Shown in pieces: positions 1,700-63,107 of a DNA stretch of 64,000 nt. The notes beneath the pieces are model-generated. The model had not been told where the DNA came from. It was given only the letters and a program-made list of their open reading frames with translations, and did not search any database. The position numbers were made by a program, and so were the translations under genes. Positions within the stretch are counted from its first letter, which is position 1. Each line of letters starts with the position of its first letter. The DNA is from Adenophora triphylla var. japonica (taxonomy: Eukaryota; Streptophyta; Magnoliopsida; Asterales; Campanulaceae), in assembly GCA_022495995.1 (NCBI GenBank), contig JAFEMH010000076.1:1054001-1118000 (forward strand). The letters are read 5' to 3'.

Positions 1700-1798
1700 T
1701 GTCGTCCGACACAGGACATCATGGGATGGCCCTGTCGTCCGACATGGAGAGTCTGAGGGACAGTTTCTTGGGTAGTAAGCCCCCAGCATTTATAAAAG
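1700..1798 (+). promoter_or_regulatory. Palindrome pair and TATA box before antisense DUF7745 gene of A
   Basis: TGTCGTCCGACA occurs at 1700-1711 and 1733-1744, followed by TATAAAAG at 1791-1798 and the start codon at 1894. The same 12-mer, with minor variants, occurs seven times in the A LTR and twice in its leader. The interval 1269-1699 holds no other gene that I can see. Confidence 0.65.
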
Positions 1799-1893
1799 GC
1801 AGACTCATGAAAAACACATTCCAGCAGTCACAGCAGACTTCAAATCGATCTTCCACCTCAAAATCAACTCCAAGATTCAATTTTTGGCCCAGA

Positions 1894-3467
1894 ATGGAGC
1901 ATTATAATGAGAGATCCAATATTAAAGAGCGCCAATTTCACTCCGATCTCATCCATCTAACCCACCACCATCATAGCAACAATAGGAGGGTTATCAACCA
2001 ACGGTATGGGCTGAGATGCCTTTGGACACTAAAGGAATGGGCGGTAGATTGGAATCTTCTCCGAGCCGCGTCCAGATATTGGAACCGCGAGAGGCATGTC
2101 TTTACCCTCTCATACAACGACCTTACACCCACTATTGAAGAGTTCCGTGCACTGACTGGGGGATCTGAGCTCAGAGATGTAGTCTTCCCACGAGATTCAC
2201 GACCCTTGACTGAGCAGCTGGCCGATTTCTTGGGTTTGCCCGTAGAGCAGGTACCTGATCTGATCCTCGACCTGTCTTTCATTGACCTGGCCCAGATAGC
2301 CTGGTTAGCTGTATCCCGTCCAGAGCTGTTTGACCTATCCACGGCCATGGACATTTTCATGCTGATTATGATCTCCCTATACTGCTTCTGTGAGTATGAT
2401 GGGATATGCTCCGGCTTGCTGTTAGGAGTCGTTAGGCAGATGCGGGGTTACCGGGGTACCACACTGACTGAGATTCAGCCCGGGCAGGGAGAGAGAGACA
2501 TAGTACCCATTTTACTGGCAGAGACGTATCATGGGATGGACCGACTGGCTGGAGGGTTATTATACATGGGACGCGACAACCCCAGTCTCTTATCATTGTG
2601 GCTCTTTGAGCGGTTGGGACTTATTTCCCTACTACCCGCAGGCGTGACCGCAAAGACCCCTGGGTTACACAAATAGAGGCGAAAGTGGTTCCTGGAGGCT
2701 TCGCAAGAGAGTTGGCAGAGGCGATTGACCAGGTATACCACCACTGATATTCAGTATTGGGTTCCCGGATGGAGTCTTGAGATCATGAGTGGCAGACAGA
2801 ATGATTCTGTCATCGTGAGACTGCCGGGGTTGCACTTTTCATCATTTAGCATCCCCTTACTTGTTCTGAGGCAGTATGGGTACCCACAGCAGGTTATTGG
2901 CGAGTTCATAGAGCAGATGACCCGGGATACCGTTCCTCTTGACATGACTGATGGCCAGACCATTAGATTCTTTACCAGGGTCTTTTCGGGAGCAGCCTTT
3001 CCCACTCGCACACTGATACGGAAGACCTGGGGCATCACATATCTGTCCACTTTGTATCTCATTTGGTACGGGGAGCAGATGGGGCCGGTTCAACAACCAT
3101 TGAGGCACATTGCCAAGGAACCCGATGAGGAGACCAGACTAGCCGGGAGCTACGTGATGCTGAGGCACTGACTGACCCAGACAACGTGACCGACGATCCG
3201 GCAGCAGATTTTGAGAGACTCGTAGAGAGAAGGGCCAAGATGAGGGATGACCCTGAGGTTATAGCCCGGAGGACAGCTTTGAGGGAGGAGAGGGCTACCC
3301 AGGCAGCACTGAGAGCTGCCGGATTTGTTGACTCGCTGACTCGTAGCATTCCTAAGCCAGGACGACGGGAGACAGAACTGTTTGGGATACCTAGGCCAAA
3401 GACCTCCCGAGTACCGAGGAAGAGGAAGAAGAAGAGCGCTAGTTCGGGAGTGGGAACGAGCGACTAG
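1894..3467 (+). pseudogene. DUF7745-like antisense ORF protein of element A
   Basis: The start (MEHYNER) aligns with the starts of the B homologue. The first half carries the conserved block DWNLLRAASRYW, HVFTLSYNDLTPTIEEFRALTG, typical of plant DUF7745-like proteins found beside Tat retrotransposons. The middle has the TYHGMDRLAGG and SLWLFERL motifs. The C-terminus is basic and disordered-looking (RKRKKKSASSG). An in-frame TAG at 2674-2676 and one frameshift near 3130-3170 split an otherwise alignable reading frame of about 520 codons. It is antisense to A's gag-pol and converges on integrase. Function is unknown. Extra ORFs in this position are described for Tat elements, some related to plant mobile-domain proteins. 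The basic tail would suit a nucleic-acid-binding or nuclear protein, which is inference. Confidence 0.8.
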
Positions 3468-3558
3468 GATTAGGTGACCGATCATTGTATCCCTTATTGC
3501 TAACACAGACGGTCTAGACGTACTTTTAAAAGATGTACTTTTGCTTAAGTTAATGAGT

Positions 3559-3774
3559 CGAGAGTGGACCGTGCTTGAAATCATCAACGAATGTATTATT
3601 TTAATGAAAGTTGAAATTACTTCAGAACTTAATCAAGACACATTTTGGCATTCTCAAATATAACTATTGACAGGATTTGGTGATTTTTATGTTTTTTAGA
3701 CCGAACCGCAAGCGGCTGCCTACGTTCCCCTTTTACAAAAAGAGGACTAAGGGGCTCAGGTCTTCGTAGTTCGA
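3559..3774. other. Conserved noncoding tail and foldable block between convergent genes (A)
   Basis: In the 575-bp gap between the DUF7745 stop and the integrase stop lie two blocks also present in B, E and F. The first is an approximately 28-bp sequence around GTGCTTGAAATCATCAA (3559-3587). The second (3697-3774) has AGACC..GGTCT and CTACG..CGTAG complementary arms around a CCCC..GGGG stem. The role may be 3' processing or an RNA cis element; this is inference. Confidence 0.6.
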
Positions 3775-3987
3775 CCCAATTAACTTGTGTTTAAGAAAGG
3801 GATAGATAGAAGGGGGACAAGTGGTGCAACCCTGTTTTTTACCTAGACCGCCCGTTTTTAGGGTTTTCAGTCTAGCTGGGTATATTCTTTAGCACCGAGC
3901 GCGCCCTTTGTTTTGCACGGACTGCCTTTTGAGAGGTTTTCGCCTCGTCTGGGTACATTATTTTTGCACTTTTATTATTATATTTTT

Positions 3988-3990
<3 letters not shown>

Positions 3991-6943: not shown

Positions 6944-8080
6944 TGAATGTGCGCTCGCCCGAAAAAAAATAATGAAATGAGAGTCGCCACGCCGTTTTAA
7001 GAGGAAACATTGAAAACCTTTTTTAGAGAGAAAATGGGTTCGGGGGTCAGGTTACGTGTTGGGAAGAACCGAGAGTTCACCCAACACGCCTCGTCCGTAG
7101 ACGAGTCTTTCTAATCTAGACATCCAAATAATTCAAAAGATGTGCAAACGATGATAATGAAACAAAGTGTGATAAACATGCATTTTATTAAATAAAAGAG
7201 ATCATTACAACTTGTAGACCAATTGTCTGGGAGGCCACATCCCTTTACATCAACTAGAGACAGATTACAAGAACAAAAGGTCCTCTGCAAAGGATCACAT
7301 ATGTCGCGTGACATATGACTCCTTTGTCCCGATATGTCGCGTGACATATGTTCACCTTGCAGAGGCTCACAAATCAAACAGATCACCAAATCTCTAGATA
7401 AAATGAACAGAAGCCAGATCTAGGAACTAAACAACATGAATACAAAACTACATTCTAGAAAAACTGAACAAAACAAGCTACAACTGAAATATGGTCCCTG
7501 CAGATGGTCACAACATGTCGCGTGACACAGGACTCCTCATGTCCACATTTGTCGCGTGATATATGTTTACCATCCGCAGGTACCTCACAAACTGAGATGC
7601 AGATCCAACAATAACACAACAATTATATCATAAACAGTAATAACAATACGAATTAAACACGAATCAATCAAAGGAGTGTGGATATGGGAGATCCACACTC
7701 CCTTGATGCCCAAATTGCAAATCCAAATAGATCACATCAATATCAAGCAATTGGACTCAAGTATAAGCTATTAAACAGAGAGATTGCAGTTGCCACTTGA
7801 TAATCTGAGGCAGAAGAGGCCTGATTATCAAGTGGAGAAGGATAGAGAGTAATTAGAACAAAATGGATGAGAGAGAGAAGGGGGAGAGTGTTACCCTTGT
7901 AGTCCTCAACTCTTACACCAAGTTAGGTGTAGGAGCCTTCAATTCAACTTCGAGATGGAAGATCTGAGCACTGGTTGAGAGCTGAATCAAGGGGCTTCAA
8001 GTGTATAGGGGAGTAGAGATGGAATTAGTTTGAAGAGAGATGAGAGGTGATGGAATTGGAGGGCAATTGGGAGGTTTTGG

Positions 8081-8122
<42 letters not shown>

Positions 8123-8535
8123 TGGCGTAATTTGGGCAGAGTGGCTTTAGGGAGGTCGAAAAGGGATCCAAAACTGAGAGGGATAGGGTCTTATTTATAG
8201 CTGTTGTCTATGGTCACTTTGTGTCGCACGACGTAACGTTACTACTTTCCATGCTTCAAGTTGTCGCGTGACACAAGGTGACAATAACCATTTTTGGCGC
8301 CAAAATTGATTCTGGAAGATTCCTAGGTAATACCCAAAAAGTCCAAAACAGTTTTATTCCCTCTAGGTCCTTTAACTCGAGCAAAGTACAAAAAAGTACT
8401 TCCTTCGCGAGAAACATATGAAATGTTTCCGGAAGTCTCGGGATGGACCGGGAATTTACCAAAATGCCCCTAAATGCAATTTTATTATTTAAAATGCATC
8501 TGGAAAGGTCGTGAATTTGGATTGGCGTACTTACA
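6944..8535 (-). repeat. 3' LTR of element B
   Basis: 1592 bp, starting TGTAAGTACGCC and ending CATTCA in sense orientation. U3 contains two palindromes (8262-8273 TGTCGCGTGACA and 8222-8233 TGTCGCACGACG) followed by TATAAATA (8192-8199, minus strand). The gap from the nearer palindrome to the TATA box is 22 bp. Further copies of the palindrome lie at 7302, 7335, 7516 and 7550. GAGTCGCCA at 6981-6989 is a minus-strand copy of the first nine PBS bases. Confidence 0.94.
8084..8118. repeat. (GA)n microsatellite in LTR of B
   Basis: About 17 GA units. The matching tract in the other LTR (from about 33124) is shorter, so the two LTRs have diverged here by slippage. Confidence 0.95.
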
Positions 8536-8547
8536 GAGCCCCTCGGC
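8536..8547 (-). other. Polypurine tract of element B
   Basis: On the minus strand GCCGAGGGGCTC directly precedes the 3' LTR start TGTAAGTA, the position expected for the plus-strand primer of reverse transcription. Element E has a closely similar tract. Confidence 0.75.
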
Positions 8548-8720: not shown

Positions 8721-8805
8721 GACTAACTACAAGCAAGAAAGGGGTAGAGATGTATCTTCATACCTTTGCTGTGCTTACCTGTGACTTCTTGAGGGTTTTT
8801 AACCT

Positions 8806-9724
8806 GGTGGAAGACTGTTTTGAGGCGTCTGAACCTGATGGAGAGGCTATTTTGAGGCATCCGAACCTGATGGGAGACTGTTTTGAGGCGTTCGAACCTG
8901 ATGAAGAGACTGTTTTGAGGCGTCCGAACCTGATGAAGAGACTGTTTTGAGGCGTCTGAACCTGTCGGAGAGACTGTTTTGAGGCGTCTGAACCTGATGG
9001 AGAGACTATTTTGAGGCGTCTGAACCTGGTGGCAAGACTGTTTTGAGGCGTCTGAACCTGGCGGCGAGACTGTTTTGAGGCGTCTGAACCTGGTGGCGAG
9101 ACTGTTTTGAGGCGTCTGAACCTCAGTGGAGGGACCGCTTGAGGCGTCCGAACTCGATGAAGAGAGGCTGAGGCGTCTCGAACTTGACGGAGAAGCTGAG
9201 GCGTCCCGAACCCGATGGAGAAAGCTTGAGGCGTCGAACCAGTGGCGAGGCTGTTTTGAGGCGTCTCGAACCCGGTGGCGAGACTGCTTTTGAGGCGTCC
9301 AAACTCGATGAAGAGACTGAGGCGTCGAACTCCAGTGGAGAGACTGCTTTGAGGCATCTCGAACTCGATGGAGAGATTGTTTTTAGGCGTCTGGACCTGG
9401 TGGGAGATCGTTTTGAGGCGTCCGAACCGGTGGAGAGACTATTTTGAGGCGTCCGAACACAGTGGCGAGAGCATTTTGAGGCGTCTGAACCTCGATGGAG
9501 AGACTGCTTGAGGCGTTTGGACCTGGTGGGGAGACTGTTTTGAGGCATCTGGACCTGGTGGAGAGACTGTTTTGAGGCATCTGAACCTGATGGAGAGACT
9601 GTTTTGAGGCGTCTGGACCTGGTGGGGAGACTGTTTTGAGGCGTCTGAACCTGATGGAGAGACTGTTTTGAGGCATTTGAACCTGATGGAGAGACTGTTT
9701 TGAGGCATCTGGACCTGATGGAGA
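8806..9724. repeat. 32-bp tandem repeat array in 3' untranslated region of B
   Basis: Nearly thirty degenerate copies of a 32-bp unit built around TGAGGCGTCTGAACCTG and GAGAGACTGTTT. Several long frames across it are by-products of the periodicity, not genes. Tandem repeats in this region are typical of Tat elements, where the 3' UTR is known as a source of satellite repeats. Confidence 0.93.
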
Positions 9725-9853
9725 GTGTAGCTGCCGGAGGGGTTGATGCTACTACTGCTGAGGATAGGTGTAGCTGCCGGAGGGGTTGATGCTACTACTG
9801 ATGGGGATAGGTGTAGCTGCCGGAGGGGTTGATGCTACTACTGCTGCTGACAA
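9725..9853. repeat. 43-bp tandem repeat, three copies
   Basis: Three copies, starting at about 9725, 9768 and 9811, of a unit containing GTGTAGCTGCCGGAGGGG and GATGCTACTACTG, directly after the 32-bp array. From here to about 10348 I recognise nothing further. Confidence 0.85.
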
Positions 9854-10348: not shown

Positions 10349-10425
10349 TGTCACCCGACACTATGTGTCTGTCTGTCAATATCTGTCGCACGACTAGACG
10401 AGGCTCGCGACAGGGTCTATTTAAA
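10349..10425 (+). promoter_or_regulatory. Palindrome pair and TATA box before antisense DUF7745 gene of B
   Basis: Variant palindromes TGTCACCCGACA (10349-10360) and TGTCGCACGACT (10384-10395) precede TATTTAAA (10418-10425). The gap from the second palindrome to the TATA box is 22 bp, identical to the gap in both B LTRs. The start codon follows at 10540. Confidence 0.65.
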
Positions 10426-10539: not shown

Positions 10540-12335
10540 ATGGAGCAATATAACGAGGAAATAGCTTCTCGGGAACATCAATTTCGCCAAGACTTTATCG
10601 GGGTTTCACAATTTCACCAAAAGCATCATGGGAAAATCATTGACAAGCGATATGGTATGCCGTGCCTCTGGCCTCTGAAGAACTGGAGAGTAGATTGGGA
10701 CTTGCTCCGAGCAGCTTCACAATTTTGGGACTCAGAGAGGCATGTGTTTACTTTCTCATACAATGATCTGACGCCAACCATGGAGGATTTCCGGGCATTG
10801 ACGGGTTTGAGTGATGTGGCAACTGTGGCATTTCCTCGGGATAGGCGGCCAGTTGTGGAGCAGTTATCAGACTTCTTGTGCCTGTCGGTAGATCAGGTGG
10901 CTCCCATGGTTCTAAACAGTGAGTTTGTAGACTTGACCCGGATGGCTCGTCTGCGATCTTCTAGCCTGGCATTGTTCGATCTCTCTACTTCGCTGGATAT
11001 GTATGTATTGTTCACCTTGTCGGCATACTACTTCTGCGGTCATGTCGAAGTCTGCTCAGGTGCGCTGCTGGAGGTTGTTAAATAGCTTAGGGGTGACCGA
11101 GGCGTGGATCTTTCTCAAATTCGGTTCGGCCAAGGGGAGATGGACATTGTACCCCTGCTATTAGCTGAGACTTATCATGGCCTTGATCAAGGTTCTAAAA
11201 AGCGCTAGGCGGATGCTAGGCGGCGAAGCCGGGCCTAGCGCCTAGGCGGGGACTAGTCGGGGACTAATCGGGATTAGTCGGGATTAGTCGGGATTAGTCA
11301 GGACCTAGGCGGGGCTTAGAACTAGGCATTGGAGAGGGGCCTAGCGCCTAGGCGGGGCCTAGGCGCCCTTAGGCGGGGTCTTTTAGAACAGAGGCCTTGA
11401 TAGACTAGCCGGAGGATCTGACTTCATGGGCGCGGGCAGCCCCACTCTGTTATCTTTATGGCTTTCTGAGAGACTGCGCTTGGTTGGGCCATTACCTGAG
11501 GGTTAAACAGCAATGCCTTGGGTGACCAGACAACGCAAATTACTGAGGGATGCAACAGCTGATAGTTGGCAGGTGAGATTGACAGGTGAGATTGACACGA
11601 TACGAGACTGCTGATCTAAACTTCTGGATTCCGACATGGGGATTAAAGACCATGAGAGACGTTCAGGACGGGTCGGTAGTAGTCAGACTGCCGGGGCTAC
11701 ATGTGTCCTTATTCTGTATCCTGTCATTGGTAAGCAGGCAATATCGGTACCCTCAGCAGATTATCCGGGCTTTGAGAGAGACCGACGGTTGATGTGTTCC
11801 AATGATCATGACCGAGCCCTGCATCGTGCATTTCTGCAGCAGATCTTTCTTGGAGGGCTTTCTTCCCACACGGACGCTTCTTCGTCAGACCAGAGGGTTT
11901 ACATTCTTGACCACGAAGTATCTGATTTGGTATGAAGAGCAACGGGGTCCCGTGCAATTGGCTATAGAGGCTCGCCGAAGGGAATACTTAGGAGCAGAAT
12001 ATCCATCCAGTCGATCCTTTCAAGATGCAGAAGCCAGAGGGAATCCAGATAATGTTACCGGCGATACTGTGGAGGATTATGAGAAACGAGAGATCCGGAG
12101 GGCTGCTCTGAGGGATGATCCAGATGTGAGTGCTCGCAGAGAGGCCTTGCGACAAGAGAGGGCTGTCAGGGCTGTTTTGAGGGAGACTGGCCTAATCGAA
12201 CCACCAACACGCAGTATACCAGAGCTGGGGCAAGCTTAGACCGATTTATTCGACATTCCTAAACCAAAGACCTCCCGAGGACCAAGGAAGAGGAAAGATA
12301 GGGGTGCGAGTTCGGGAGCGGGAACGAGCCTCTAG
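10540..12335 (+). pseudogene. DUF7745-like antisense ORF protein of element B, interrupted by a MITE
   Basis: Starts MEQYNEE and shows the family block DWDLLRAASQFW, HVFTFSYNDLTPTMEDFRALTG, then TYHGLD and RLAGG, which are separated by a 206-bp insertion (11188-11393). It ends in a basic tail (RGPRKRKDRGASSG). Breaks: an in-frame TAG at 11083-11085, the insertion, a stop near 11505, a frameshift around 11790, a TAG at 12237-12239, and a short direct duplication of AGGTGAGATTGAC near 11570-11595. It is the homologue of the A, E and F genes and lies in the same antisense position. It is not functional as it stands. Its biochemical role is unknown. Confidence 0.82.
11188..11393. mobile_element. 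hAT-like MITE inserted in the antisense gene of B
   Basis: A 206-bp insertion between exact 8-bp duplications GCCTTGAT (11180-11187 and 11394-11401). The ends are imperfect inverted repeats sharing GTTCTAAAA (CAAGGTTCTAAAA left, complement of TTTTAGAACAGAG right). The interior is rich in AGGCG/CGCCT and GGATTAGTCG repeats. An 8-bp duplication with C-A-type ends suits the hAT superfamily. No coding capacity. Confidence 0.8.
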
Positions 12336-22464: not shown

Positions 22465-22467
22465 AAT

Positions 22468-30425: not shown

Positions 30426-31967
30426 CCTCTCTACGGAGCATTGCTATCCCTCGGGCTCTCATAGCCTCCACAAAACGGTTATGGGCCTCTTCTTCTGGAT
30501 CTTAGCGTTCGAGCCGACAGCGGGCTTCACGCTCTCGGGTCAAAGCGGCTTCCAAGTTCAACCTCAACTCCTCTCAGACAAATCATTCAGCTTGGCTGAT
30601 TCATCGGACTTGAACCTCCAGCGGATTGAGTAGCAAACAGATCTCCATTCCCTGCCATTTCGGATTCTATACTGACTAAAGCTTCGGAAACTGCTAAAAC
30701 TTCTCTAACAACCCGAATTAAACGAGCTCCTGGTACGGATGATCGACTCCAACTCGCCGTAGCTGCGGGGGTATATATACGGGTTTATGAGGTAGGGAAG
30801 GAAGAGTGGATACGGGAGAGGGAGAAGAAATGGAGAGACAGACTCACACAAACAATTTATTTATCTTCAAGTATAAATCAATGATTTAAATCCTAAGAAC
30901 GGTTGGAAAAGGCTAACCCTTTATTTATGCTAACTATACCTTGGGGGAACCTAGGGACGTAACGTTCAAATTACACTAAATGTTTTGTATTTGAAATTAA
31001 TAATAGGTAATGTTACCTAGCCAAAACCTAACACGATGTGAGACAGACGTGTAGCCCCAATTTCTAGGGAAATTTGGGCAGCATAACGGGTATTCTCGGG
31101 GAATTTCCAAGAAAAATCCGGTATGACCTCTCGTCGGTGCATGGTGACAATGCGGCATGATCTCTCGTTTAGGACACGCCACGGAAGTGACATGTCCTCA
31201 TGTGAAACCATGTTGCATTGGCAACATGCCCACAAGGTGTGGGGTTTTGAGGGAGGTAATAGAACTTATTTGGAAATTTCAAAAAACAAACCATTTTGGT
31301 GTAGTTAAAACAACATGTCAAAAACCAACCGTGGGTAAGGTTATAGTGTGGTGCCACCTAAACGCGCTAGGGGGATAGGTTTGACATTAGGCGCTCAAAC
31401 GTAGGCGAATATTATCACCGTCCGCGATGCCGTCCGTCGCACCCGAGGGTTCTAGAACTATGTGATGTAGTGTGCGGATGTCTATATTCTTTAATTTCAA
31501 AAAAAACAAAATTTTTCATTTATCTATTTTATTTATTAAGAAAAAAGGAAGACACACACACAACTCTCAAGGAAGAAAGGGAACAACAGTCAGCTGAGCG
31601 ATCTCTTCATTGATTCAAGGGACTGCCCTCAAACCAGAACCAGAACCTATCCAGTGACTGAACTTGTCGCGTGACACAGGACAGCAAAAGACAGAGCTGT
31701 CGCACGACTAAGCAAGTCGCTGAATCAAACCCCCTGCAAAATTGAGATTAGCCCCTGCCTTTCGTTGGCAAGGGATGAGACCAACCAGCAAGGCAACCAC
31801 ATATAAAGCACAATCCACAAACAATGGTCTACAAATTGCAAGATCACCTAAAATGCATGTATCGCACATGATTATCAAGGATGCACATAGAATGAACACA
31901 TTGGATGTCTAAACGAATGAAAGCATGACCCACTTAGTTTTGAAAAACAGGTTTTCAAAAGGCATTG
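30426..31967 (-). other. Leader of element B between PBS and gag
   Basis: About 1.5 kb without a gene. It contains palindromes TGTCGCGTGACA (31665-31676) and TGTCGCACGACT (31698-31709), and a degenerate repeat region around 31100-31230 (ATCCGGTATGACCTCTCGTC and relatives) that resembles the repeats in A's leader. Confidence 0.7.
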
Positions 31968-31986: not shown

Positions 31987-33562
31987 TGAATGTGCGCTCG
32001 CCCGAAAAAAAATAATGAAATGAGAGTCGCCACGCCGTTTTAAGAGGAAACATTGAAAACCTTTTTTAGAGAGAAAATGGGTTCGGGGGTCAGGTTACGT
32101 GTTGGGAAGAACTGAGAGTTCACCCAACACGCCTCGTCCGTAGACGAGTCTTTCTAATCTAGACATCCAAATAATTCAAAAGATGTGCAAACGATGATAA
32201 TGAAACAAAGTGTGATAAACATGCATTTTATTGAATAAAATAGATCATTACAACTTGTAGACCAATTGTCCGGGAGGCCACATCCCTTTACATCAACTAG
32301 AGACAGACATAAGAACAAAGGTCCTCTGCAAAGGGTCACATATGTCGCGTGACATATGACTCTTTTGTCCCGATATGTCGCGCGACATATGTTCACCTTG
32401 CAGGGGCTCACAAATCAAATGTATCACCAAATCTCTAGATAAAATGAACAGAAGCCGATCTAGGAACTAAACAACATGAATACAAAACTACATTCTAGAA
32501 AAACTGAACAAAACAAGCTACAACTGAAATATGGTCCCTGCAGATGGTCACAACATGTCGCGTGACACAGGACTCCTCATGTCCACATGTGTCGCGTGAC
32601 ATATGTTTACCATCCGCAGGTACCTCACAAACTGAGATGCAGATCCAACAATAACACAACAATTATATCATAAACAGTAATAAAAATACGAATTAAACAC
32701 GAATCAATCAAAGGAGTGTGGATATGGGAGATCCACACTCCCTTGATGCCCAAATTGCAAATCCAAATAGATCACATCAATATCAAGCAATTGGACTCAA
32801 GTATAAGCTATTAAACGAGAGATTAGCGGTTGCCACTTGATAACCGAGGCAGAAGAGGCCTAATTATCAAGTGGAGAAGGAGAGAGAGTAATTAGAACAA
32901 AATGGATGAGAGAGAGAAGGGGGAGAGTGTTACCCTTGTAGTCCTCAACTCTTACACCAAGTTAGGTGTAGGAGCCTTCAATTCAACTTCGAGATGGAAG
33001 ATCTGAGCACTGGTTGAGAGCTGAATCAAGGGGCTTCAAGTGTATAGGGGAGTAGAGATGGAATAAGGTTGAAGAGAGATGAGAGGTGATGGAATTGGAG
33101 GGGAATTGGGAGGTTTTGGTATGAGAGAGAGAGAGAGAGAGAGAGTTTCTGGCGTAATTTGGGCAGAGTGGCTTTAGGGAGGTCAAAAAGGGATCCAAAA
33201 CTGAGAGGGGTAGGGTCTTATTTATAGCTGCTGTCTATGGTCACTTTGTGTCGCACGACGTAATGTTACAACTTTCCATGCTTCAAGTTGTCGCGTGACA
33301 CAAGGTGACAATAACCGTTTTTGGTGCCAAAATTGATTCTGGAAGCTTCCTAGGTAATACCCAAAAAGTCCAAAACAGTTTTATTCCCTCTAGGTCCTTT
33401 AACTCGAGCAAAGTACAAAAAAGTACTTCCTTCGCGAGAAACATATGAAAAGTTTCCGGAAGTCTCGGGATGGACCGGGAATTTACCAAAACGCCCCTTA
33501 ATGCAATTTTATTATTTAAAATGCATCTGGAAAGTTCGCGAATTTGGATTGGCGTACTTACA
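31987..33562 (-). repeat. 5' LTR of element B
   Basis: 1576 bp. Palindromes at 32343, 32376, 32556, 32590, 33249 and 33289. TATAAATA (minus) at 33219-33226 lies 22 bp from the palindrome at 33249. The PBS-like GAGTCGCCA is at 32024-32032. Differences from the other copy include the shorter (GA)n tract and several point changes. Confidence 0.94.
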
Positions 33563-34164
33563 GCTAGCCTTGTTTAAGTCCCTGAAGTCTACACAAACCC
33601 TGACTTTGCCGTTTGACTTGGTCACCGTCACTATGTCGGCCAACCACTTCGGGTACTCGACCACTCTAATGAAACCCATCCTGAGCAGCTTCTCTATTTC
33701 TTCTTTGACCTGGGGAGACCATTTGGCTTAATCTGGCGAAGCTTCTGCTTGACAGGCCTGGCTTCTGGGTCTAGGGGTATTCGGTGCTCAACAGTTGAAG
33801 TATCCAATCCAGGCATATCCTTGTAGGACCAGGAAAACACGTCCACATACTCCTTGAGCAAATCAATGAGGGCTTCCCGCTCTTCCCCGGTGAAGAAACT
33901 GCCAATTTGTGTCTCTTTGGGCTCTTCAGTAGTTCCCAAATTCACCATAGTCAATACCTCATCGGCAGCTTGGGCCCGATTGTCCTCTCGCTCAAAAACC
34001 TGCTTTAGATTATCATTTAAAAAGTTTTCATCTAGAAGGTCTGTGTCCCCTTCAAATGAATCATTATTAACCACTTTTAAGTCATTAAGATTTGTTTTAG
34101 TTAACTTATCATTTGTTAAGGTGGCAATTAAGGGATACGCAGAAAGGTCAACCATTTCATTCAA
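33563..34164 (-). pseudogene. RT N-terminal part of element A
   Basis: Encodes NRAQAADEVLTMVNLGTTEEPKETQ in several steps, FSWSYKDMPGLDTSTVEHRIPLDP, then after a frame change the RT fingers ending DFRDLNKAS at the junction with element B. It continues at 6943. No protease or gag lies upstream. Confidence 0.9.
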
Positions 34165-35172: not shown

Positions 35173-36873
35173 GGATTATTTGAGACTGCTGGAAACGACC
35201 CTTTGACCGGAGAGAAACTGATTAACCGACCACCCGGAACTCTGACCCAATACTTGCTCGCTGAAAGGGGGAGAGAACTGTTTTAGGTAGGGGAGAGGAT
35301 AGGCTTAGGGCGGACTCATGAATATGATTTATTTGAAAGATTTAATAAAAACAATTTTTATTAATCCTAGGAACGGTTGGAAAAGGGGGACACCTTCTTT
35401 TTCGCAGTCTACACTATTCCTGGACTAGTGGGTTCCATCACTACGTCTATAGACCCCCTGTATTCCACCTGTATTGCACCTCCGGGATGGACAATCCCGG
35501 CAGAGGTCCTATAGGGCACGTGGAACCCACCAATCAGAAGGCAAAACGGACCTATAGGCATACAAGTCAAAACAAGTCAAACTCAAGATTTTCAAAACCA
35601 AGTCCAAGTCAACGTCTTGACTCGGGAGGAGAGAGGGTCGAAAGTACGTTTGAATGTACGAGACCGCAATTTGCAGGTAAAATCCTAAAAAAAATCTGGC
35701 ATGACCTCTCCTCATTTCGAGTCGAAAATCCGGCATGGCCTCTCATCACTTCATGGCGAAATTTCGACATGACCTCCCGTTAGTATGTGTCCAGAATTTG
35801 ACATGATCTCGCGTTAGCACATGTCGAAAACGCATCATGACCTCTTGCGAAGTCAAGTCGAGAAATCGACATGTACCCACGTCGAGACATGTCAAAGCTT
35901 TGACATGTACTCACGTTGGGTTATGTCGTAATTTCATCATGAAGAAAGGGGAGTATGCCAAGACTTTAGAGACGAAGTATGACTCGGACTTGGTGAGAAA
36001 ATTTTGAAAACCGAGTTTGAAAAATGTTTTGAAAAGTATTTTGCCAAAAACCAACCGGTCACGGTAGAAAGTGTGTCACGGACAAGTGTTGGCTCCTACT
36101 CTATTGGCTAGGAGGACTTTAGGCGCTCAAGCATAAGTAAACACGTCACTGTCCGCGATGCCATCCGTACACTCCCGGGTTCTAACTCTATGTGCGGGTA
36201 TCGTGCGAGTAGTGTGAAGATATCTTCTAGGAAAATATATTTTTGCTTTTTTGTGAAAAAAGATTATTGTTTGTTTTTTTTTTTTCAAAATGCAATTTTT
36301 ATGAATATGCAAAAAGGAAAAACAAGAAAATGAGTCCAAAAGCACGACAAAAGGGGACTACCCCAAATGCCAAGAGATCACCAGCAACTGCATTTTCAGG
36401 ATTGCTCCCGCCCTGTTCTCCTGATCAGCTGAACCTGCTCCTGCACTGCATTCCTATGTCGTCCGACACATGACTTTCCAGGAAGGGGATGTCGTCCAAC
36501 ACAGGGGTTCTCACCAACAGAACCAAGCAAACTGCAAGGGGGAAGCCCCCACCATCCAAAATACCACATACCAAGGCATATAAAGCATATAGGCACAGAA
36601 GCATGGCATGGCACATAGGAGAACACACAATGACGCAAATTACACACAAGGAGAATGAAGAAATTGTCCAAGTTTGATTTAAAGAAAGTTAGACCCTCTT
36701 AGGAAAAGCTTTTTTCTTTTTCAAAAAAAGAGGAATGATACCGGTACGTGGAATTGTTAGACCACAATTTATCCCAAGCCCCGGGTTAGGGAGTGATACA
36801 GGAAATTTAGTGGTTTCCACCTATATACCCAACATCAATCCTTTTTTATTAAAACAAAAGCTTTTCAATGTTT
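35173..36873 (-). other. Leader of element A
   Basis: 1.7 kb without a convincing gene. It has a hairpin with arms CCGGGAT (35482-35488) and ATCCCGG (35494-35500). Five or six degenerate repeats of about 45 bp around GGCATGACCTCTC and ATGTCGAAA lie at 35690-35940. Palindrome copies lie at 36457-36468 (TGTCGTCCGACA) and 36490-36501 (TGTCGTCCAACA). Confidence 0.65.
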
Positions 36874-36892: not shown

Positions 36893-38616
36893 TGAATGAA
36901 CGCCCTTCGAAAAAATCAAATCAAAACAATCCGATCGATGTTTGTAAAATCATTTTTTTATGGATTTTGGGAGTCGCCACGCCGTTTTAAAGGAAAACAT
37001 TGAAAAACCTTTTTAAAGAGAAAATGGGTCCGGGGTCAAGTTACGATGTGGGAAGAGAATTATGAGCTCACCCACATCGCCTCTTTCGAGACTTTCAATC
37101 AAACAGTGGACAATTATAAACATTCAAAGTGTGTGCAATTTGTGTCAATAAACGAGGCATGCAAACTTGGATTTCATTGATGGTATTCAGAATGGATACA
37201 ACTTGTGAGCCATCACAGGGGGCCACACCCTTTACAAATGATGACTTGCATTACAAGGCAAGAGCCGACATACCGTCAGAAGCTCGAATGTCGTCCGACA
37301 CAGGACTTCCTCAGAGAGGGATGTCGGACGACATGAAGCCTCCTGGTCAGATTGCCTCTTACAATACCAAGGCTATTCTAAAACTAAAACAAGATTATTT
37401 AAACTGATGAGAGGCACTATTCAGGGTCTAAGACCAATTTGGGGTTGATTGGAGTGAGCAAAGTCATAAATGACCTTTAATGATACGGATGTCGTATGAC
37501 ATAGGACATCCAAAGCTGTCCATGTCACACGAAAAACCGCCCCCATCAATAGATCACACCCAAACAGATCTTAGGCTTCCCAAACAGTGATGAACGAACT
37601 AAACACTATTTAAACCCAGCTTTGAGTCACAAAGGGAGATCAATCTTGGTAGATCTGAAGTCCTTGGAAGCCAAACAGCTTTCTGGGAACTCTATGTCGT
37701 ATGACACATGATCCTTTGAGGGGTCCTGTGTCGTCCGACACAAGCGGCCTGTTTTAGTGCCCTTCAGTCAGATTGATCCCACCTTGCTCTCAATGCAAAA
37801 CTAAGCTATATTATTAACTGAAAGTAGTAAAATAGTAACACTATGTGAGTATTATGGGAGGATCACATGGCTTTAATGGCCAAATGTGATGAATCACATG
37901 TTTTTGGCCATTATTATGTAGCCATCTCCTCCTAACTAAAACAAAACTAACCAAGATGCAAGCTTTAAAGCAATTAAAGCTACCTAATGTCCAGATCTGA
38001 GGTGTGGAGGTGTGAATATTGAAGATTCACACCTCTACCACCTTTGTCATGCAAAAATCCCAAATATATCACATAATATCAAACCATGTAAGCATGCAAG
38101 ATGAAATGAACAAGTATATAAGATGTAATCAGAGAGAGAGGGAGTTTAGGGACTACCTATTGTAGTACACAAGGTAGAATCACCAATAGTATGGTGTTCA
38201 CCCCTTCAAAACACCAACAAAGGAGGTCCTTCTTTGGATCTTGGCTTGGATGTGTGTATGTGTGAGGAGGGAGGTGAGTGTGTGTGTATGAGAGAGAGAG
38301 AGAGTGAGTGTGTATTTCTGCAGAGTTTCCTTCCTTGCCAAGAGTCTCTTTAAAATGATCAGCCATGCCCTTTATTTATAGGCAGGCTGATGGGAGGTCC
38401 CATGTCGGACGACAGAGGGCGTTAACCGCCTTTGGTGGTCCTATGTCGGACGACATCGGTCAACATTATGACAAAGCTGGGCTGCAGGAAGGCAGGCCCA
38501 ATTGATTGAATAAACAAAAGGATAATTGGGCTCAAAAATGCATTTTAGCAAATAAATGAGCCCAAAAATCAAGGAAAGTGGACCCAAAAACACGAGTTCG
38601 GGTTGGGGTACTCACA
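36893..38616 (-). repeat. 5' LTR of element A
   Basis: 1724 bp with TG..CA ends. Palindromes TGTCGTCCGACA or close variants lie at 37289, 37322, 37490, 37695, 37729, 38403 and 38444. TATAAATA (minus) at 38373-38380 is 22 bp from the palindrome at 38403. PBS-like GAGTCGCCA is at 36971-36979. A (GA)n tract lies near 38290. The partner LTR is left of the window. Confidence 0.9.
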
Positions 38617-43914: not shown

Positions 43915-45359
43915 TGAAATAGCCCGGATTTGGCTCGTGCGCGGAGCCCCGACATCTCGCATTCGTTCGTGTTTGGGAGTCGCCCGGATCCGAGAGGCAG
44001 CGCGATCGCGCCCCGGCATCTGGCTATTCCGTTTACATTGGAGGTGTCTCACTGTGTGTTTGCTTTATAGAGTCGCCACGCCATTTTTATTAAGCCCAAA
44101 ACATTAAAAAAGGGCATCATTTTAAAAATAAACTATTTTTATGTGATGAGATTTTAGGTTCGGAGGTCAGAAGGTCAGATGACTCCTCGGGAAGAGAATA
44201 TTAGAATATTAGAGCTCACCCGAGTCGCCTCGTAAAAACGAGTCTTTCGGTACCCCTTATATTCTCTAACTGTTGTGTGTGTGTGTGTATGTGCTTTTAA
44301 AAATGCATGCTTTATCGGATGTCTACATTGTACACTGCTTTATTGAAATGTATTGAAATAGTGTAGGAAGGAAGCCTTACCAATGTTGGTTCGTGTCTGT
44401 CTTCCGCTGAGGAATAGTGTTTGAGGATGGAATAGTGTTTTGGGATGAGCCGGTTGTCTGCGGACAGAGTTTCGGCGTGCGTCGGGATCATAGGGGTTAC
44501 TCGGGCAGAGGTTCGGCGTGCGTTGGGATCACAGGGATCACTCGGGCAGAGGTTCGGCGTGCGTTGGGATCGCAGGGATCACTTGGGCAGAGGTTCGACG
44601 TGGGCCGGAATTGCCAGTTTGACTCGGAAAGAGCCGGGATGCCTCGGGAAAGATCAGGCAAGGCCTCGGAGTACCACGAGGGGCCTCAGAGTACCTCGAG
44701 AGTGCCTCGGGGCAGCGCGGGAGCGTCACGGGAGCGCTCGAAGAGGCTTCGGAGCGCCACAAGGGAGCTTAGAAGGCCTCAAAAGGATCCGAAGGGGCCG
44801 AGATTGCCCCGAAGGGTCTTAGAGGGGTGCCTGAAGGCTGGGGGAAGAGGAGAGAAGAGGGGGATGTGTGAAATGAGGGAGGGGGAGCCCTCTATTTATA
44901 GTAAAAAATTTCATCCAAGAAGGTCCGTACGGACCTTCCATGTAATCCAGGATTTTGGTTTTCCTCGATTTGAGGGAATAAGTGGACTTTAAGAAGATTC
45001 AGCAATGATGGTGTCTGGTAACAAGAAGGTCCGTACAGACCTCCTTGCATGCATAAAGGTCCGTACGGACCTCTCATGAAGCTGAGTAATGATGCCTTTC
45101 GGGATTTGAGGGAATATCTTGGACTTTAAGAGGATTCAGTAATCATGGCAACAAAGAGGTCCGTACGGACCAATTCTGCATTTTTACATAATTCCTCAAA
45201 GGTCCTTTTGTCCCTTTTTGTTCCAGAAAGGCCCCTCCCTTGTTTTGGTTGGTGGTTTTGTGGTTTTTGAGGGTTATGGGTATTCGAGACTGCATTTGTG
45301 TGAGTCTGCGGTGTTTCCCTGGTGCTCGGAAGAGGGTGATCCAGATTGGGGTGCTTACA
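43915..45359 (-). repeat. 3' LTR of element E
   Basis: 1445 bp, TGTAAGCACCCC..CTATTTCA in sense orientation. GGTCCGTACGGACC palindromes lie at 44922, 45058 and 45158, with a one-base variant at 45028. TATAAATA (minus) at 44893-44900 is 21 bp from the palindrome at 44922. PBS-like GAGTCGCCA is at 44070-44078. A (GT)n tract lies near 44275. Confidence 0.92.
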
Positions 45360-48857: not shown

Positions 48858-48930
48858 GGTCTGTACGGACCATTTAGGCATGCAAAGAGGTCCGTACGGA
48901 TCTCTTCTGCTTTTGGGAAGGGATAAGTGT
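48858..48930 (+). promoter_or_regulatory. Palindromes before antisense DUF7745 gene of E
   Basis: GGTCTGTACGGACC (48858-48871) and GGTCCGTACGGATC (48889-48902), each one change from the LTR palindrome. They are followed about 20 bp later by GGATAAGTG at the place of a TATA-like AAATAAAT in F. The start codon is at 49019. 48554-48857 holds only the X 3' end and an AT-rich tail. Confidence 0.6.
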
Positions 48931-49018: not shown

Positions 49019-50536
49019 ATGGATTCTTCGTATGTTCCAAGAATTTTGCCAAGGCTTTCGAAGGAGCGGCAAGCATACTTCCTTGAGCGGCTGAAAATGT
49101 GGATGCGACACCATATGAGGCATCAGAGGCGGGCTTTCGAGGTAAGGTTTCGACTTTGCTCGGTTTGGTCCCTTAAGGAGTTGGTTCCTGATTGGGAATT
49201 GTTGCGGGCTGCCACGAAGTTCTGTGATGTTAGGAGGCATGTGTATTGCTTCTCCTACAATGAAATGGTGCCCACCTTTGAGGATTTTCGGGCTTTGGTT
49301 GGAGGACCGGAGGTGGATGCCATCTCGCTTCCTTTGATTGGCGGTGCTGCCGTGAGCGTGAAGCTTGCATGCTTTCTTCCTACTTCATTGGGAGAAGTGC
49401 AGGGCATGATCCTTGATTCAGGTCATATTGACATTTCTGCGTTGCCGGAGCGGTTTATGATTGATGATGAGAGCGATGTCTCGTGGGATACATTTGCCTT
49501 GTGCGTGATAGCAACGCTTTTCATGGTCAGCTCCCTTGGGGTTTGCGATGGCGCTTTACTAGATGTGGTTGGGCACTGCAGAGCTGGAGAGGATATTGTC
49601 CCGTTGGTGCTGGAGGAGACTCTTCACGGTATTGACCGTCTGGCGACTGAGGATAGGTTCATGAGAGGGGGAAGCCCCGCTTTGCTCACCTTGTGGCTGC
49701 GAGAGAGACTTCAAGCCATGCCCGAGGCTCCGACGTCGTTTAGCCCGTGGACATTTGTTCAGCGTCCTCTTGTGTTGGATATGGATCAGTCCGCCTGGGA
49801 GAGATGGATGGCACGGCTTGGTACGCATCAGATCCGTTGGTGGGTTCGGCACTAGAGGATTGAGACTAGGAGGGCCTTCCAGGAAGGGTCCTATGTTGTC
49901 AGAGTTCCAGGTTTGTCTTGGTCCTCCTTCTATATTCCGTCGCTTGTTTCCTGGCAGTTCGGGATGAAGCAGGAGCCTTTGTTGGGCTGGGATGACCTTG
50001 CCACTGCGGAGGTGGCTCTTCTTTGTATGGCAGCTCCAGGTGCTCTTTTGTATTTTCTGAGGGTATGGAAGTATTCCGCTTTCCCTCCTATGGTGCTCCT
50101 TAGATGTCGGGAGAATGTCGTGTTGACCACCCAGTACTTGGGCTTGGTATGAGCAACAGGTCAAGGCCCCAAGTGATTTTGGGGAACATGCGTGAAGCGA
50201 TTCTGGGCCCGATTGCCGTAGTAGCTATTGCCTTAGGAGTGCCGAAGCTCGGTCTCGACCTCAGATGTCACGGAGACGCTTTGTTTGACTACGAGACCAG
50301 AGTTGACCGACCGATGGAGAGAGGTCCTCTTTACGTGATTCGCAGGGAGTGAGATCCGAGCCGAAGCACGGCGAATGAAGCCCCGAGAGCCGCCGGATTG
50401 TTTGACTCTACGGGAGGACCCCTAATCTCGACCGAGAGACGCAGAGCTGGCTCGCGTGGAGCGAAAGAAGACTCGCCGGGGACGAGGGAAGAAAGGGAAG
50501 AATGGCGAGGGGACAAGCGCAGATGGTGCGGAATGA
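49019..50536 (+). pseudogene. DUF7745-like antisense ORF protein of element E
   Basis: Starts MDSSYVPRILPRLSKERQAYF and contains DWELLRAATKFCDVRRHVYCFSYNEMVPTFEDFRALVGG across adjacent residues, LHGIDRL, LTLWLRERLQ, and the basic tail (KKTRRGRGKKGK) ending at 50536. A TAG at 49853-49855 replaces a Trp codon kept in F (WWVPHWG). A frame change around 50145-50400 follows. It is the same family as in A and B but a distinct branch, closest to F. Antisense to E pol and convergent with integrase. Function unknown. Confidence 0.82.
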
Positions 50537-52992: not shown

Positions 52993-54380
52993 TGTAAGTA
53001 CCCCAATCTGGATCACCCTCTTCCGAGCACATGGGAAACACTGCAGACTCACAAACACAGTCTCGAAGACCTATAGCACTCAAAACCCTCAAAAACCCTC
53101 AGCCAAACCACGGGAGGAGCCTTTCTGGGATAAAAAGGGACAAAAGGACCTTTTGGGAATTTTCAGGAAATTGGAAAAGCAAATAAGGTCCGTACGGACC
53201 TCTTTGTTGCAATAATTACTGAATCCCCTTAAAGTCCACAATATTCCCTCAAATCCTGAAGAAAATCATTACCCTCATGCATGGTTGGTCCGTACGGACC
53301 TCTTTGCATGCCAAGATGGTCCGTACGGACCTCTTTGCACAGGGGACACCATCATTCCAGAATATTCACAATTATCACAGATTTCCTCAAATCGAGGAAA
53401 ACTAAAATTCTGGATAACCTAGGAGGTCCGTACGGACCTCTTTGCACGAAATCTACCACTATAAATAGAGGGCTCCCCCTCCCATTTCATTCACACCTCC
53501 CTCTTCTATCTTCTTCCCCTAGCCTTCAGGCTTCCCTCTAAGACCCTTCGGGGCAATCCCGGCCCCTTTCGGATCCTTCCGAGGCCTTCCGAGCTCCCTC
53601 GTGGTGCTCTGAAGCCTCTCCCAGCGCTCCCGCGACGCTCCCGCGCTGCCCCAAGGCACTCTCGAGGTACTCTGAGGCCCCTCGTGGTACTCCGAGGCCT
53701 TGCCTGGTCTTTCCCAAGGTGTCCCGGCTCTTTCTGAGTCAAACCGGTAGCTTGAACGCACGCCGAAACTCTGCCCGAGTGACTCCTGCCATCCCAACGC
53801 ACGCCGAAACTCTGCCCGAACGCAGCCTACAATCTCAACTCACGCCGAAACTCTGTCCGCAGACAACCGGCCCCTCCCGAAGCAATCCCGGTCTGTACCG
53901 GAACACTATTCCATCCTCAAACACTATTCCCCAGCGGAAGACAGACACGAACCAACATTGGTAAGGCTTCCTTCCATTACTATTTCAATACATTTCAATA
54001 CATAGTGTACAATGTAGACATCCGATATCGCATGCATTTTTAAAAGCACACACACACACACACACAACATTTAAAGAATATTAGGGGTATCTGAAAGACT
54101 CGTTTTTACGAGGCGACTCGGGTGAGCTCTAAGATTCTAATATTCTCTTCCCGAGGAGTCATCTGACCTCCGAACTCAAAATCTCATCACACAAAAACAG
54201 TTTATTATTATTTTTAAACTGATGCCCTTTCTCAATGTTTTGGGCTTAACAATAAAAACGGCGTGGCGACTCTACAAAGCAAAACACAGCGAGACACCTC
54301 CACCAACGAAAACGCTGCAAAGCGGGAAATGCCAGATGCCGGGGCGCGAACGCGCTGCCTCTCGGATCCGGGCTATTTCA
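52993..54380 (+). repeat. 5' LTR of element F
   Basis: 1388 bp, TGTAAGTACCCC..CTATTTCA. GGTCCGTACGGACC lies at 53187, 53287, 53318 and 53425. TATAAATA at 53460-53467 is 21 bp after the last palindrome. TGGCGACTC (PBS-like) is at 54264-54272. An (AC)n tract lies near 54045. Confidence 0.92.
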
Positions 54381-60661: not shown

Positions 60662-60700
60662 AGAAGAACATCTGTGCATCTCTTGGCACTCCATGTAGTG

Positions 60701-61340
60701 TCGAACTACGCAGACCTGAGCCCTCTAGTCCGGGGGAACGTAGGCAACCTTAATTGTTCCGGTCTAAAAATACACATAAAAAGTCAAAAGTTTGAATGTC
60801 AATCAAGACCTCCATCAAGCTACGAACTTTTCAAGAGCATGCCCCAACGTCACCTTGACCAAGTCAAACGACGTCGGCAACATCAAAGGACATCCGGAGG
60901 TCACTCAACGTCAAACGACTGACTCATGTCTACTTCCAAGCCAGGGGCTTGTCTTCGCCCTCACGTGCTTCAAAAAAAAAAAGAGCTCGAGCAAGGGCTC
61001 ACAAAAAAAAAAAGCTCAAGCAGAAGCTGCGAAATTGAGGTCAAGAGCCCGACGCCAACAAAGGGCAAGGAAGCTACGGAAATGACCGTCAAAACGACTT
61101 GTCATGGGATCATTCAACCTCTCAGCCAAGCACAAATCCTAAGCAAAGGGGATTGCCGTCAAGGCCTGCATCGCTTCACCCGCAAATGCAATGTAAAAGT
61201 CCAAAGATGGACGCCGACAAGGTGCACAAAAGAAACAAAGGCAAACAAGAGATCTTGCGTCTCGACAAAGCTTTAAAAGTAAATCACAAATCACTAACGG
61301 TTACAACATTTCTTGATGAGTTCAAGCACGGTCTACTCTC
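60701..61340. other. Convergent gap of F: foldable block, AGCTC repeats, conserved tail
   Basis: Mirror image of the E gap: CGTAG..GGTCT-type foldable block at 60701-60765, A-rich AGCTC/AAGCTC repeats near 60970-61030, and the GTGCTTGAACTCATCAA block (minus strand) at 61312-61340. No gene seen. Confidence 0.6.
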
Positions 61341-61421
61341 AAGTTCACAACATGCTAAAAGACAGCTTAATACATTTAACAAATAATGTGTTTGCAATGC
61401 AATGAATGGATACCTAGGAGG

Positions 61422-62945
61422 TCATTCCGCGCCATCCGCGCTTGTCCCCTCGCCATTCTTCCCTTTCTTCCCTCGTCCCCGGCGAGTCTTCTTTCGCTCC
61501 ACGCGAACCAACTCTGCGTCTCTCAGTCCGAGATCAGGGGTCCTCCCCGTAGAGTCAAACAATCCAGCAGCTCTCAGGGCTTCATTCGCCCGTGCTTCGG
61601 CTCGAATCTCCTCCCTGCGAGTCTGTAAAAGAGGACCTCTCATCGTCAGTCGGTCAACTCTGGTCTCGTAGTCAAATAAAGTGTCTCCCGTAACATCCTG
61701 GGGGTCAGACCAGGCTTCGGCACTCCTAAGGCAATAGCTACTACGGCAACCGGATCCCAGAATCGCTACACGCCTGCTCTCCAAAGCCACTTGGGACTGC
61801 CCAACACGCTGCTCATACCAGGCCAGGTACTGAGTCGTCAATACGACACTCTCCCGACGTCTAAGGAGCACCACAGGAGGGAAAGAGAAATACCTCCATA
61901 CCCTCAGAAAATACAAGAAAGCACTTGGAGCTGCCATACAAAGAGGAGCTATCTCCGTAGTAGCAAGGTCATCCCAGCCCAACAAAGGCTCCTGCTTCAT
62001 CCCAAACTGTCGGGAAACAAGCGACGGAATATAGAAGGAGGACCAAGACAAACCTGGAACTCTGACGACATAGGACCCTTCCTGAAAGACCCTCCTAGTC
62101 TCAATTCCCCAGTGGGGAACCCACCAACGGATCTGATGCGTACCAAGCCGTGCCATCCATCTCTCCCAGGTGGACTGATCCATATCTAACACAAGAGGTC
62201 GCTGAGCAAATGACCACGGGCTAAACGACGTCGGAGCCTCGGGCATGGCCTGAAGTCTCTCTCGTAGCCACAAGGTGAGCAAAGCGGGGCTTCCCCCTCT
62301 CATAAACCGATCCCCAGTCGCCAGACGGTCAATACCATGAAGAGTCTCCCCCAGCACCAATGGGACAATATCCTCTCCTGCTCTGCAGTGCCCAACCACA
62401 TCTAGCAAAGCGCCATCGCAAATGCCAAGGGAGCTGACCATGAAAAGCGTCACCATCACGCACAAGGCAAATGCGTCCCAAGAGACCTCACTCTCATCAT
62501 CAACCATAAACCATTCCGGCAGCTCAGAAATGTCAATATGACCCGAATCAAGGATCATGCCCTGCACTTCTTCCAACGAAGTACGAAGAAAGCCTGCAAG
62601 CTTCACGCTCACAATAGCACCACCAATCAAAGGAAGCGAGATGGCCTCCACATCCGGTCCTCCAATCAAAGCCCGAAAATCCTCGAAAGTGGGCACCATT
62701 TCATTATAGGAAAAGCAATACACATGCCTCCTAACATCCCAGAACTTCGCGGCAGCCCGCAACAACTCCCAATCAGGAACCAACTCCTTAAAAGACCAAA
62801 TCGAGCAAAGACGAAACCTTACCTCAAAAACCCGTCTCTGATGCCTCATACGGCGTCGCATCCACGTTTTCAGCTGCTCAAGGAAGTGTGCTTATCTCTC
62901 CTGCGAAAGCCTCGGCAAAATTTTGGGAACATACGAAGAATCCAT
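61422..62945 (-). pseudogene. DUF7745-like antisense ORF protein of element F, nearly intact
   Basis: 508 codons from MDSSYVPKILPRLS to GEGTSADGAE. The only visible break is TAA at 62892-62894, where E has CAA. From 62861 the frame is open for 479 codons. It carries DWELLRAAAKFWDVRRHVYC, FSYNEMVPTFEDFRALIGGP, LHGIDRLATGDRFMRGGSPA and LTLWLRERLQAMPEAP. Its VSWDAFALCVMVTLFMVSSL stretch is hydrophobic, possibly buried. It ends in a basic tail (RVERKKTRRGRGKKGKNGEG), a possible nuclear-localisation or nucleic-acid-binding segment. It is the best copy for structure prediction. Antisense to F gag-pol. Function unknown. Confidence 0.85.
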
Positions 62946-63035
62946 GGCAAAAATGGAGGTTCCTAGAGAAAATGGGGGAGAAAGCTCGAAAATGGCTGCA
63001 AATGGGGAATGGGGAAAGACCAGACACTGGAAAGC

Positions 63036-63107
63036 ATTTATTTCCTTCCCAAAAGCAAGGTTGGTCCGTACGGACCTCTTTGCAACCTAGGTCTGTCCGT
63101 ACGGACC
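63036..63107 (-). promoter_or_regulatory. Palindromes and TATA-like box before antisense DUF7745 gene of F
   Basis: On the minus strand, TGTCCGTACGGACC (63094-63107, first base changed) and GGTCCGTACGGACC (63063-63076) are followed by AAATAAAT (63036-63043). The palindrome centre to AT-box distance is about 27-28 bp, as in the LTR. The start codon is at 62945. 63108-63443 holds no gene. Confidence 0.6.

Follow-up and report, generated by a model that had tools for sequence, protein, structure and literature searches.

Why would a retrotransposon carry one type of short palindrome both in front of its long terminal repeat (LTR) promoter and in front of a gene that is read in the opposite direction? 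The question is raised by a 64,000-nucleotide stretch of the Adenophora triphylla var. japonica genome (contig JAFEMH010000076.1, positions 1,054,001 to 1,118,000; hereafter the window), which consists of nested LTR retrotransposons: element B is inserted in A and C in B, and E and F are present besides. A, B and E lie on the minus strand and F on the plus strand. These four elements have in common a gypsy-type pol region, with segments at 71-91% DNA identity, and an antisense gene of the DUF7745 family 3' of pol. The pol pieces of A contain RVT_1, RNase H and the integrase zinc-binding domain, and the copia domain RVT_2 is not among them; judged from their layout, A, B, E and F are likely Tat or Retand elements (PMC11963269). 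Our analysis located family-specific, near-palindromic sites at the LTR and antisense promoters of all four, an arrangement that suggests a self-regulating switch.

Palindromic sites at two opposed promoters

The site of A, TGTCGTCCGACA, occurs in eight exact copies in the window (either strand), that of B, TGTCGCGTGACA, in nine, and that shared by E and F, GGTCCGTACGGACC, in eight. With up to one mismatch allowed, 9, 12 and 12 sites were found, against means of 0.17, 0.13 and 0.00 in an order-3 Markov background (100 simulations; maxima 2, 1 and 0), and every such match in the whole window falls in an LTR, a leader or an antisense promoter. When variants are included, A has 12 sites, B 16, and E and F six each; the A/B variants differ from the A or the B consensus at up to two positions and stand in place, and all E/F sites lie within one mismatch. 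Stray two-mismatch matches at 2567 and 46149 correspond to the background level. An earlier sequence-only reading of the window had counted 11, 16 and 12 sites for A, B and E/F; the last two counts stood, and that for A became 12 with variants to two mismatches. Its placement of the sites in the LTR U3 part and upstream of the antisense DUF7745 gene, and in A and B also in the leader, was confirmed. The positions of the individual sites are given in brackets, with the distance between paired sites.

38403..38455, minus strand: U3 pair of the A 5' LTR (38403 and 38444; 41 bp), proximal centre 28 bp from TATAAATA (minus strand; TATTTATA at 38373)
37695..37740, minus strand: A LTR pair downstream of TATA (37695 and 37729; 34 bp)
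37490..37534, minus strand: diverged A LTR pair (37490 and 37523; 33 bp); 37490 has two mismatches to both the A and the B consensus, 37523 has two to the B consensus only
37289..37333, minus strand: A LTR pair (37289 and 37322; 33 bp)
36457..36501, minus strand: A leader pair (36457 and 36490; 33 bp)
1700..1744, plus strand: pair of the A antisense DUF7745 promoter (1700 and 1733; 33 bp), TATAAAA 46 bp downstream
33249..33300, minus strand: U3 pair of the B 5' LTR (33249 and 33289; 40 bp), centre 28 bp from TATAAATA; 3' LTR copy at 8222-8273
32556..32601, minus strand: B LTR pair (32556 and 32590; 34 bp); 3' LTR copy at 7516-7561
32343..32387, minus strand: B LTR pair (32343 and 32376; 33 bp); 3' LTR copy at 7302-7346
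31665..31709, minus strand: B leader pair (31665 and 31698; 33 bp)
10349..10395, plus strand: pair of the B antisense DUF7745 promoter (10349 and 10384; 35 bp), TATTTAAA 22 bp downstream
44922..45171, minus strand: E LTR U3 sites, a single site (44922; 28 bp from TATAAATA), a pair (45028 and 45058; 30 bp) and a single site (45158)
48858..48902, plus strand: pair of the E antisense DUF7745 promoter (48858 and 48889; 31 bp)
53187..53438, plus strand: F 5' LTR U3 sites, a single site (53187), a pair (53287 and 53318; 31 bp) and a single site (53425; 28 bp from TATAAATA at 53460)
63063..63107, minus strand: pair of the F antisense DUF7745 promoter (63063 and 63094; 31 bp)

The sequence-only reading had described all sites as GTC-N4-GAC or GTC-N6-GAC. 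This form holds for 25 of the 28 A/B sites (GTC-N4-GAC) and 11 of the 12 E/F sites (GTC-N6-GAC) and fails for the remainder; as loose patterns, 21 of 46 and 18 of 29 matches, respectively, lie elsewhere in the window. Only the E/F consensus, with its core CCG-TA-CGG, is perfectly palindromic. The arms TGTC and GACA are mostly intact in the A/B sites and the centres are asymmetric: the central pair matches in 2/12 sites of A and the fifth pair in 4/10 of B, where the variant at 32376 is a perfect palindrome. The window holds 13 perfect palindromes of at least 14 nt, nine of which are these sites (simulated mean 4.4, maximum 8; 30 simulations). When near-palindromes with three or more copies were sought without supervision, the LTRs of A, B, E and F yielded the same families again, and neither the C LTR nor the simulations (40 for each LTR and word length) yielded any. 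Sites and DUF7745 co-occur in 4/4 elements that carry the gene, at the antisense promoter in each case, and C lacks DUF7745 and has no sites in its LTR.

Other repeats were noted near the sites. A 22-nt perfect palindrome, ACATGTCAAAGCTTTGACATGT, lies downstream of the A leader pair (35887-35908) and has TGTC/GACA arms around a wider centre. Beside the E LTR, 42-bp tandem repeats (45676-46059) contain an imperfect GTC-N6-GAC, GTCCTGGGTGAC, four times, arrayed unlike the operator sites. Further tandem arrays lie on the 3'-LTR side of the DUF7745 gene, with units of 32 bp in B (8783-9725) and 51 bp in E (46612-47239); the tandem arrays D1-D3 hold none of the palindromic sites.

Pairing of the sites and distance to the TATA box

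All 28 A/B sites are paired, at 33-35 bp or, for the pair beside the LTR TATA box, at 40-41 bp. Eight of the 12 E/F sites form four pairs at 30-31 bp, and the four singles stand 100-107 bp from a pair. Uniform random placement gave 0.39 pairs in the A LTR and leader, where we saw five, and 0.28 in those of B, where we saw four. The spacings equal 2.9-3.3 and 3.8-3.9 helical turns, that is, near three or four. The order of pairs along the LTR and leader is alike in A and B, with spacings of 41/40, 34/34 and 33/33 bp and 33/33 bp in the leader, A having one pair extra. The centre of the TATA-proximal site lies 28 bp upstream of TATAAATA in all five LTRs (A, B twice, E and F), with gaps of 22 bp in A and both B LTRs and 21 bp in E and F, exactly as the earlier reading had it.

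Two motifs recur within the pairs. CAGGAC or a variant follows the palindrome in 7/11 A/B pair spacers and provides a third GAC one 7-bp step on (e.g. 1712-1717, 31677-31682, 32568-32573 and 37301-37306). GCATGC is present in 3/4 E/F pair spacers (45047, 48878 and 53306); since it occurs 20 times in the window, an early idea of a higher-order palindrome spanning the E/F pairs was toned down.

Conservation and family specificity

Between E and F, the U3 sites are identical at 55/56 bases, as against 317/401 (79%) in the other U3 positions and 789/866 (91%) in the LTR downstream of TATA. The cores of the A and B sites group by element, with a mean difference of 1.37 within and 2.56 between elements; only 2/462 relabellings of the modules were as extreme, the observed one included. 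Position-matched A and B sites differ by 2.5 on average, barely below all A-B pairs. The claim that cores change between families while the architecture stays constant was supported.

A candidate regulatory circuit

The dyad symmetry, the presence at both of two opposed promoters, the pairing at helical intervals and the fixed distance to the LTR TATA box together point to a dimeric DNA-binding protein. Our preferred reading, to which we give a probability of about 0.42, is that the paired palindromes would be operators for a dimeric factor controlling the LTR and antisense promoters, most likely DUF7745 or a factor recruited by it. Taken separately, binding of a dimer to the sites seems quite probable, and DUF7745 as the binder is a tentative choice at somewhat less than even odds; it is favoured because both the LTR and the promoter of the DUF7745 gene itself carry the sites, which are missing from the LTR of C, the only one tested that comes from an element without DUF7745.

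Such a factor would govern at once the LTR promoter, from which genomic RNA is transcribed, and the antisense promoter of DUF7745 inside the element. In most places two dimers would occupy adjacent sites about three (30-35 bp) or about four (40-41 bp) helical turns apart. The site nearest the LTR TATA box, part of a pair in A and B and unpaired in E and F, would be the one in contact with the basal machinery. The DUF7745 protein would exert feedback on the gene that encodes it and on the element as a whole, much like Tas in foamy viruses, which are animal retroviruses with a sense internal promoter. As to the effect on transcription, activation is slightly favoured.

Only A, B, E and F gave clear tblastn matches to DUF7745; a single match in C is background (E 0.19). 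The four genes are as follows.

1894..2676, plus strand: A antisense DUF7745 gene, first open part; open reading frame (ORF) called 1687-2676, then a stop, with homology on to about 3461
10540..12329, plus strand: B antisense DUF7745 gene, interrupted and partly out of frame
49019..50533, plus strand: E antisense DUF7745 gene, frame-disrupted
61422..62945, minus strand: F antisense DUF7745 gene; 479-aa ORF at 61422-62861, in-frame stop upstream of the ORF and after the likely start, basic C-terminus, Pfam PF24924 at E 7.4e-10

Against the Pfam cut-off of 26 bits for PF24924, F (38.8) and B (31.7) scored above and the partial ORFs of A (25.2) and E (23.7) just below. Measured on broken copies, and in part over short alignments (only 160 columns for pol of B and F), DUF7745 is more diverged than pol between A and B (54.8% versus 76.5% protein identity) and between A/B and E/F (36-40% versus 66-79%), and hardly so between E and F (82.2% versus 84.6%). 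Protein searches returned four relatives, P0001-P0004, known from protein sequence only, of which P0002 carries precomputed labels for both DUF7745 and the plant mobile domain (PMD). The similarity of DUF7745 to the PMD is weak: against the PMD model (PF10536), whose cut-off is 34.9, A, B, F and P0001 scored 17.8-19.7 bits (E 0.0005-0.002), and the E piece had no match in the Pfam scan. The PMD family is tied to a promoter motif, that reported for the PMD-dependent MORC1 promoter being CATGCAGTTT; this string has zero occurrences in the window. A fuller version of the circuit, in which DUF7745 is a PMD-related, sequence-specific regulator, protein and paired operators have co-evolved, and each family controls only itself as a plant counterpart of the Tas circuit, seems unlikely to hold in all its parts.

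Viral contigs scanned with the reverse transcriptase piece of A, the F DUF7745 protein and a DUF7745 alignment contained no confirmed relative and, for three motif patterns, no match; bacterial and archaeal genome contigs scanned with the RNase H/integrase piece of A and the DUF7745 alignment contained no relative. A literature search for DUF7745 found nothing.

Independence of the cases

The relationships among the LTRs are as follows, the 3' LTRs of A and F lying beyond the window or being unseen.

31987..33563, minus strand: B 5' LTR, 96.6% identical to the 3' LTR at 6944-8536
52993..54373, plus strand: F 5' LTR, 82.6% identical to the E LTR at 43982-45359
13191-13772 and 22464-23045: C LTRs, 582 bp, 99.5% identical, of a recent element nested in B

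The A and B LTRs can be aligned in short blocks only, chiefly 127 columns at 81%. The single long, well conserved block (81-84%) is close to the LTR 3' end (6978-7102, 32021-32145 and 36968-37092).

Several points weigh against the preferred reading. The five LTRs do not count as independent of one another, because two belong to one element, those of E and F are 82.6% identical and those of A and B share the 81% block; they amount to some two to three lineages. Site types divide into A with B and E with F, in agreement with DUF7745, and with so few lineages this agreement is a consistency rather than a real correlation. The spacers, too, are closer within than between elements, though more weakly than the cores (6/462 relabellings), so local duplication of modules may contribute to the family signal. 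The U3 parts of E and F, taken alone, are unremarkable, with one pair per LTR against 0.24 expected and up to three in simulations. The distance to TATA varies at the antisense promoters, where the gaps were 46 bp in A, 22 bp in B (to TATTTAAA) and 19 bp in E (to GATAAG) and F (to AAATAAA), and the distances to the site centre 52, 28, 26 and 26 bp, the boxes of B, E and F being weak and assigned by us; the gaps given earlier (22 in B, about 20 in F and 46 in A) agree with these values. C is a single control, its LTR is far shorter than those of the other elements, and a perfect palindrome, TCAACATGTTGA, occurs twice in the internal region of C (16488-16499 and 16662-16673), in or beside a local duplication and not in the LTR. 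All four DUF7745 copies look disrupted. The AlphaFold model of DUF7745 was unusable, with a mean predicted local distance difference test score (pLDDT) of 32.8, and a sequence search found no relative with a solved structure, so that a DNA-binding fold is hypothetical. A second antisense ORF directly upstream could equally encode the factor, and for Sireviruses, which have a similar layout, no common binder was identified either (PMC2829016).

Alternative explanations

Host transcription factors might bind the sites, each family being tuned to a different one and the antisense promoter using an LTR-type enhancer; we consider this possible, at well short of even odds. Such binding was considered for the Ty1/copia Sireviruses, whose family-specific palindromes lie upstream of TATA and of an additional gene and match mainly stress-related factor sites, no binder being identified (PMC2829016). 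The earlier reading had named auxin response factors (ARFs), on the ground that the arms resemble their half-sites. The A sites do contain TGTCGG, described as the preferred ARF hexamer (PMC10690724), and TGTCNN inverted repeats with a gap of 7 occur in three A/B contexts (one each in the A LTR and leader, the A antisense promoter, and the B LTR and leader). However, the same source gives 7 or 8 as the preferred ARF gap (PMC10690724), and in the window such repeats number 23 at gap 0, five at gap 7, none at gap 8 and five at gap 10; only two of those at gap 0, in the E and F LTRs, fall outside the sites. TGTC is moreover missing from 11/12 E/F sites, the one at 63094 having it on one side. ARFs are thus unsupported as the common factor, and one host factor hardly fits all cores. 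A core change shared by the dispersed sites in an element would be easier with an element-encoded partner, and the single DUF7745-free LTR tested lacks such sites.

The binder could instead be the product of the other antisense ORF, whose C-terminus is acidic, or both antisense proteins in a complex, rather than DUF7745 alone. This ORF was found in three elements, with a strongly acidic tail and with frame changes in A and E.

71-1268, plus strand: second antisense ORF of A
about 47300-48553, plus strand: second antisense ORF of E, which may contain an intron
63444-64000, minus strand: second antisense ORF of F

In A, E and F its end lies immediately upstream of the sites, and Retand elements carry other antisense ORFs with predicted DNA binding, of the TRP28 type (PMC11963269). 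However, the part of A that was scanned (71-856) gave no Pfam domain, and between the E LTR and the ORF lies only the stray match at 46149, the ORF start not being established and no further search having been made. We consider this alternative improbable.

Very improbable, in our judgement, is a role at the RNA level, with the palindromes serving as stem-loops or as signals for dimerisation of genomic RNA. Sites in the leader and downstream of the LTR TATA box would be transcribed, and palindromes could in principle pair mutually. We rejected pairing between partners, as they are no more complementary than non-partners (mismatches 1.83 versus 1.80 in A and 2.6 versus 2.4 in B), and the fixed LTR TATA distance and the presence at antisense promoters point to DNA. 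Least credible of all are functionless repeats spread by duplication within each LTR, which the spacer signal would fit, but the E/F sites are conserved above their flanks, order, spacing and TATA distance are common to A and B, and one site type stands at two promoters.

Comparison with known systems

The preferred reading of self-targeted operators has partial parallels elsewhere. The palindromic RM boxes of Sireviruses are a close published precedent, being likewise family-specific and upstream of the LTR TATA box (PMC2829016). In contrast to the antisense DUF7745 gene of the present Ty3/gypsy elements, the Ty1/copia Sireviruses carry a sense ENV gene; their core is CGG-CCG in all but one case, whereas we found GTC/GAC arms and, in E/F, the reverse order CCG-TA-CGG; and the boxes occur in no fewer than 8 copies and in as many as 32 (PMC2829016), as against pairs set apart by a spacer and a single exact distance to the LTR TATA box. 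The VANC proteins of VANDAL elements act on element-specific short motifs in the non-coding parts of the element, and these motifs change from one related family to the next, evolving together with the protein that the element encodes (PMC5735166). The analogy with VANC drawn in the sequence-only reading extends to self-targeted, family-specific motifs and not to their arrangement: VANDALs are DNA transposons whose motifs are often tandem repeats and whose binding is demonstrated (PMC5735166), whereas the present elements are retrotransposons with spaced pairs, where binding is proposed. Foamy virus Tas, an accessory protein of a retroelement, acts on the LTR and an internal promoter (PMC8670036, PMC4929722), and the likeness here concerns the site layout only.

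An antisense ORF between pol and the 3' LTR, as found here, is a Retand-type feature, and a regulatory role has been proposed for the antisense ORFs of Retand and Grande (PMC11963269, PMC7264820). The Retand domain is TRP28 (PF04195), in place of which we found DUF7745; ten scanned proteins, covering some of the antisense ORFs, gave no TRP28 match at E<=5. A term search of PMC11963269 found no report of cis palindromes. Among the literature matches listed, with subscription papers mostly outside the scope, nothing joined palindromic LTR boxes with antisense genes, and a search for the motif strings listed papers unrelated by title. What is new here is the pairing of the sites, and the Ty3/gypsy, antisense-DUF7745 version of LTR palindromes is, among the papers listed, new as well.

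What the antisense genes of plant Ty3/gypsy elements are for is described as open in two studies (PMC7264820, PMC11963269). A cis site common to the LTR and the antisense promoter makes this question accessible to direct binding and reporter tests. If the proposed circuit is real, it would assign a DNA target to PMD relatives and explain by what means related families of retrotransposons could escape regulation by one another.

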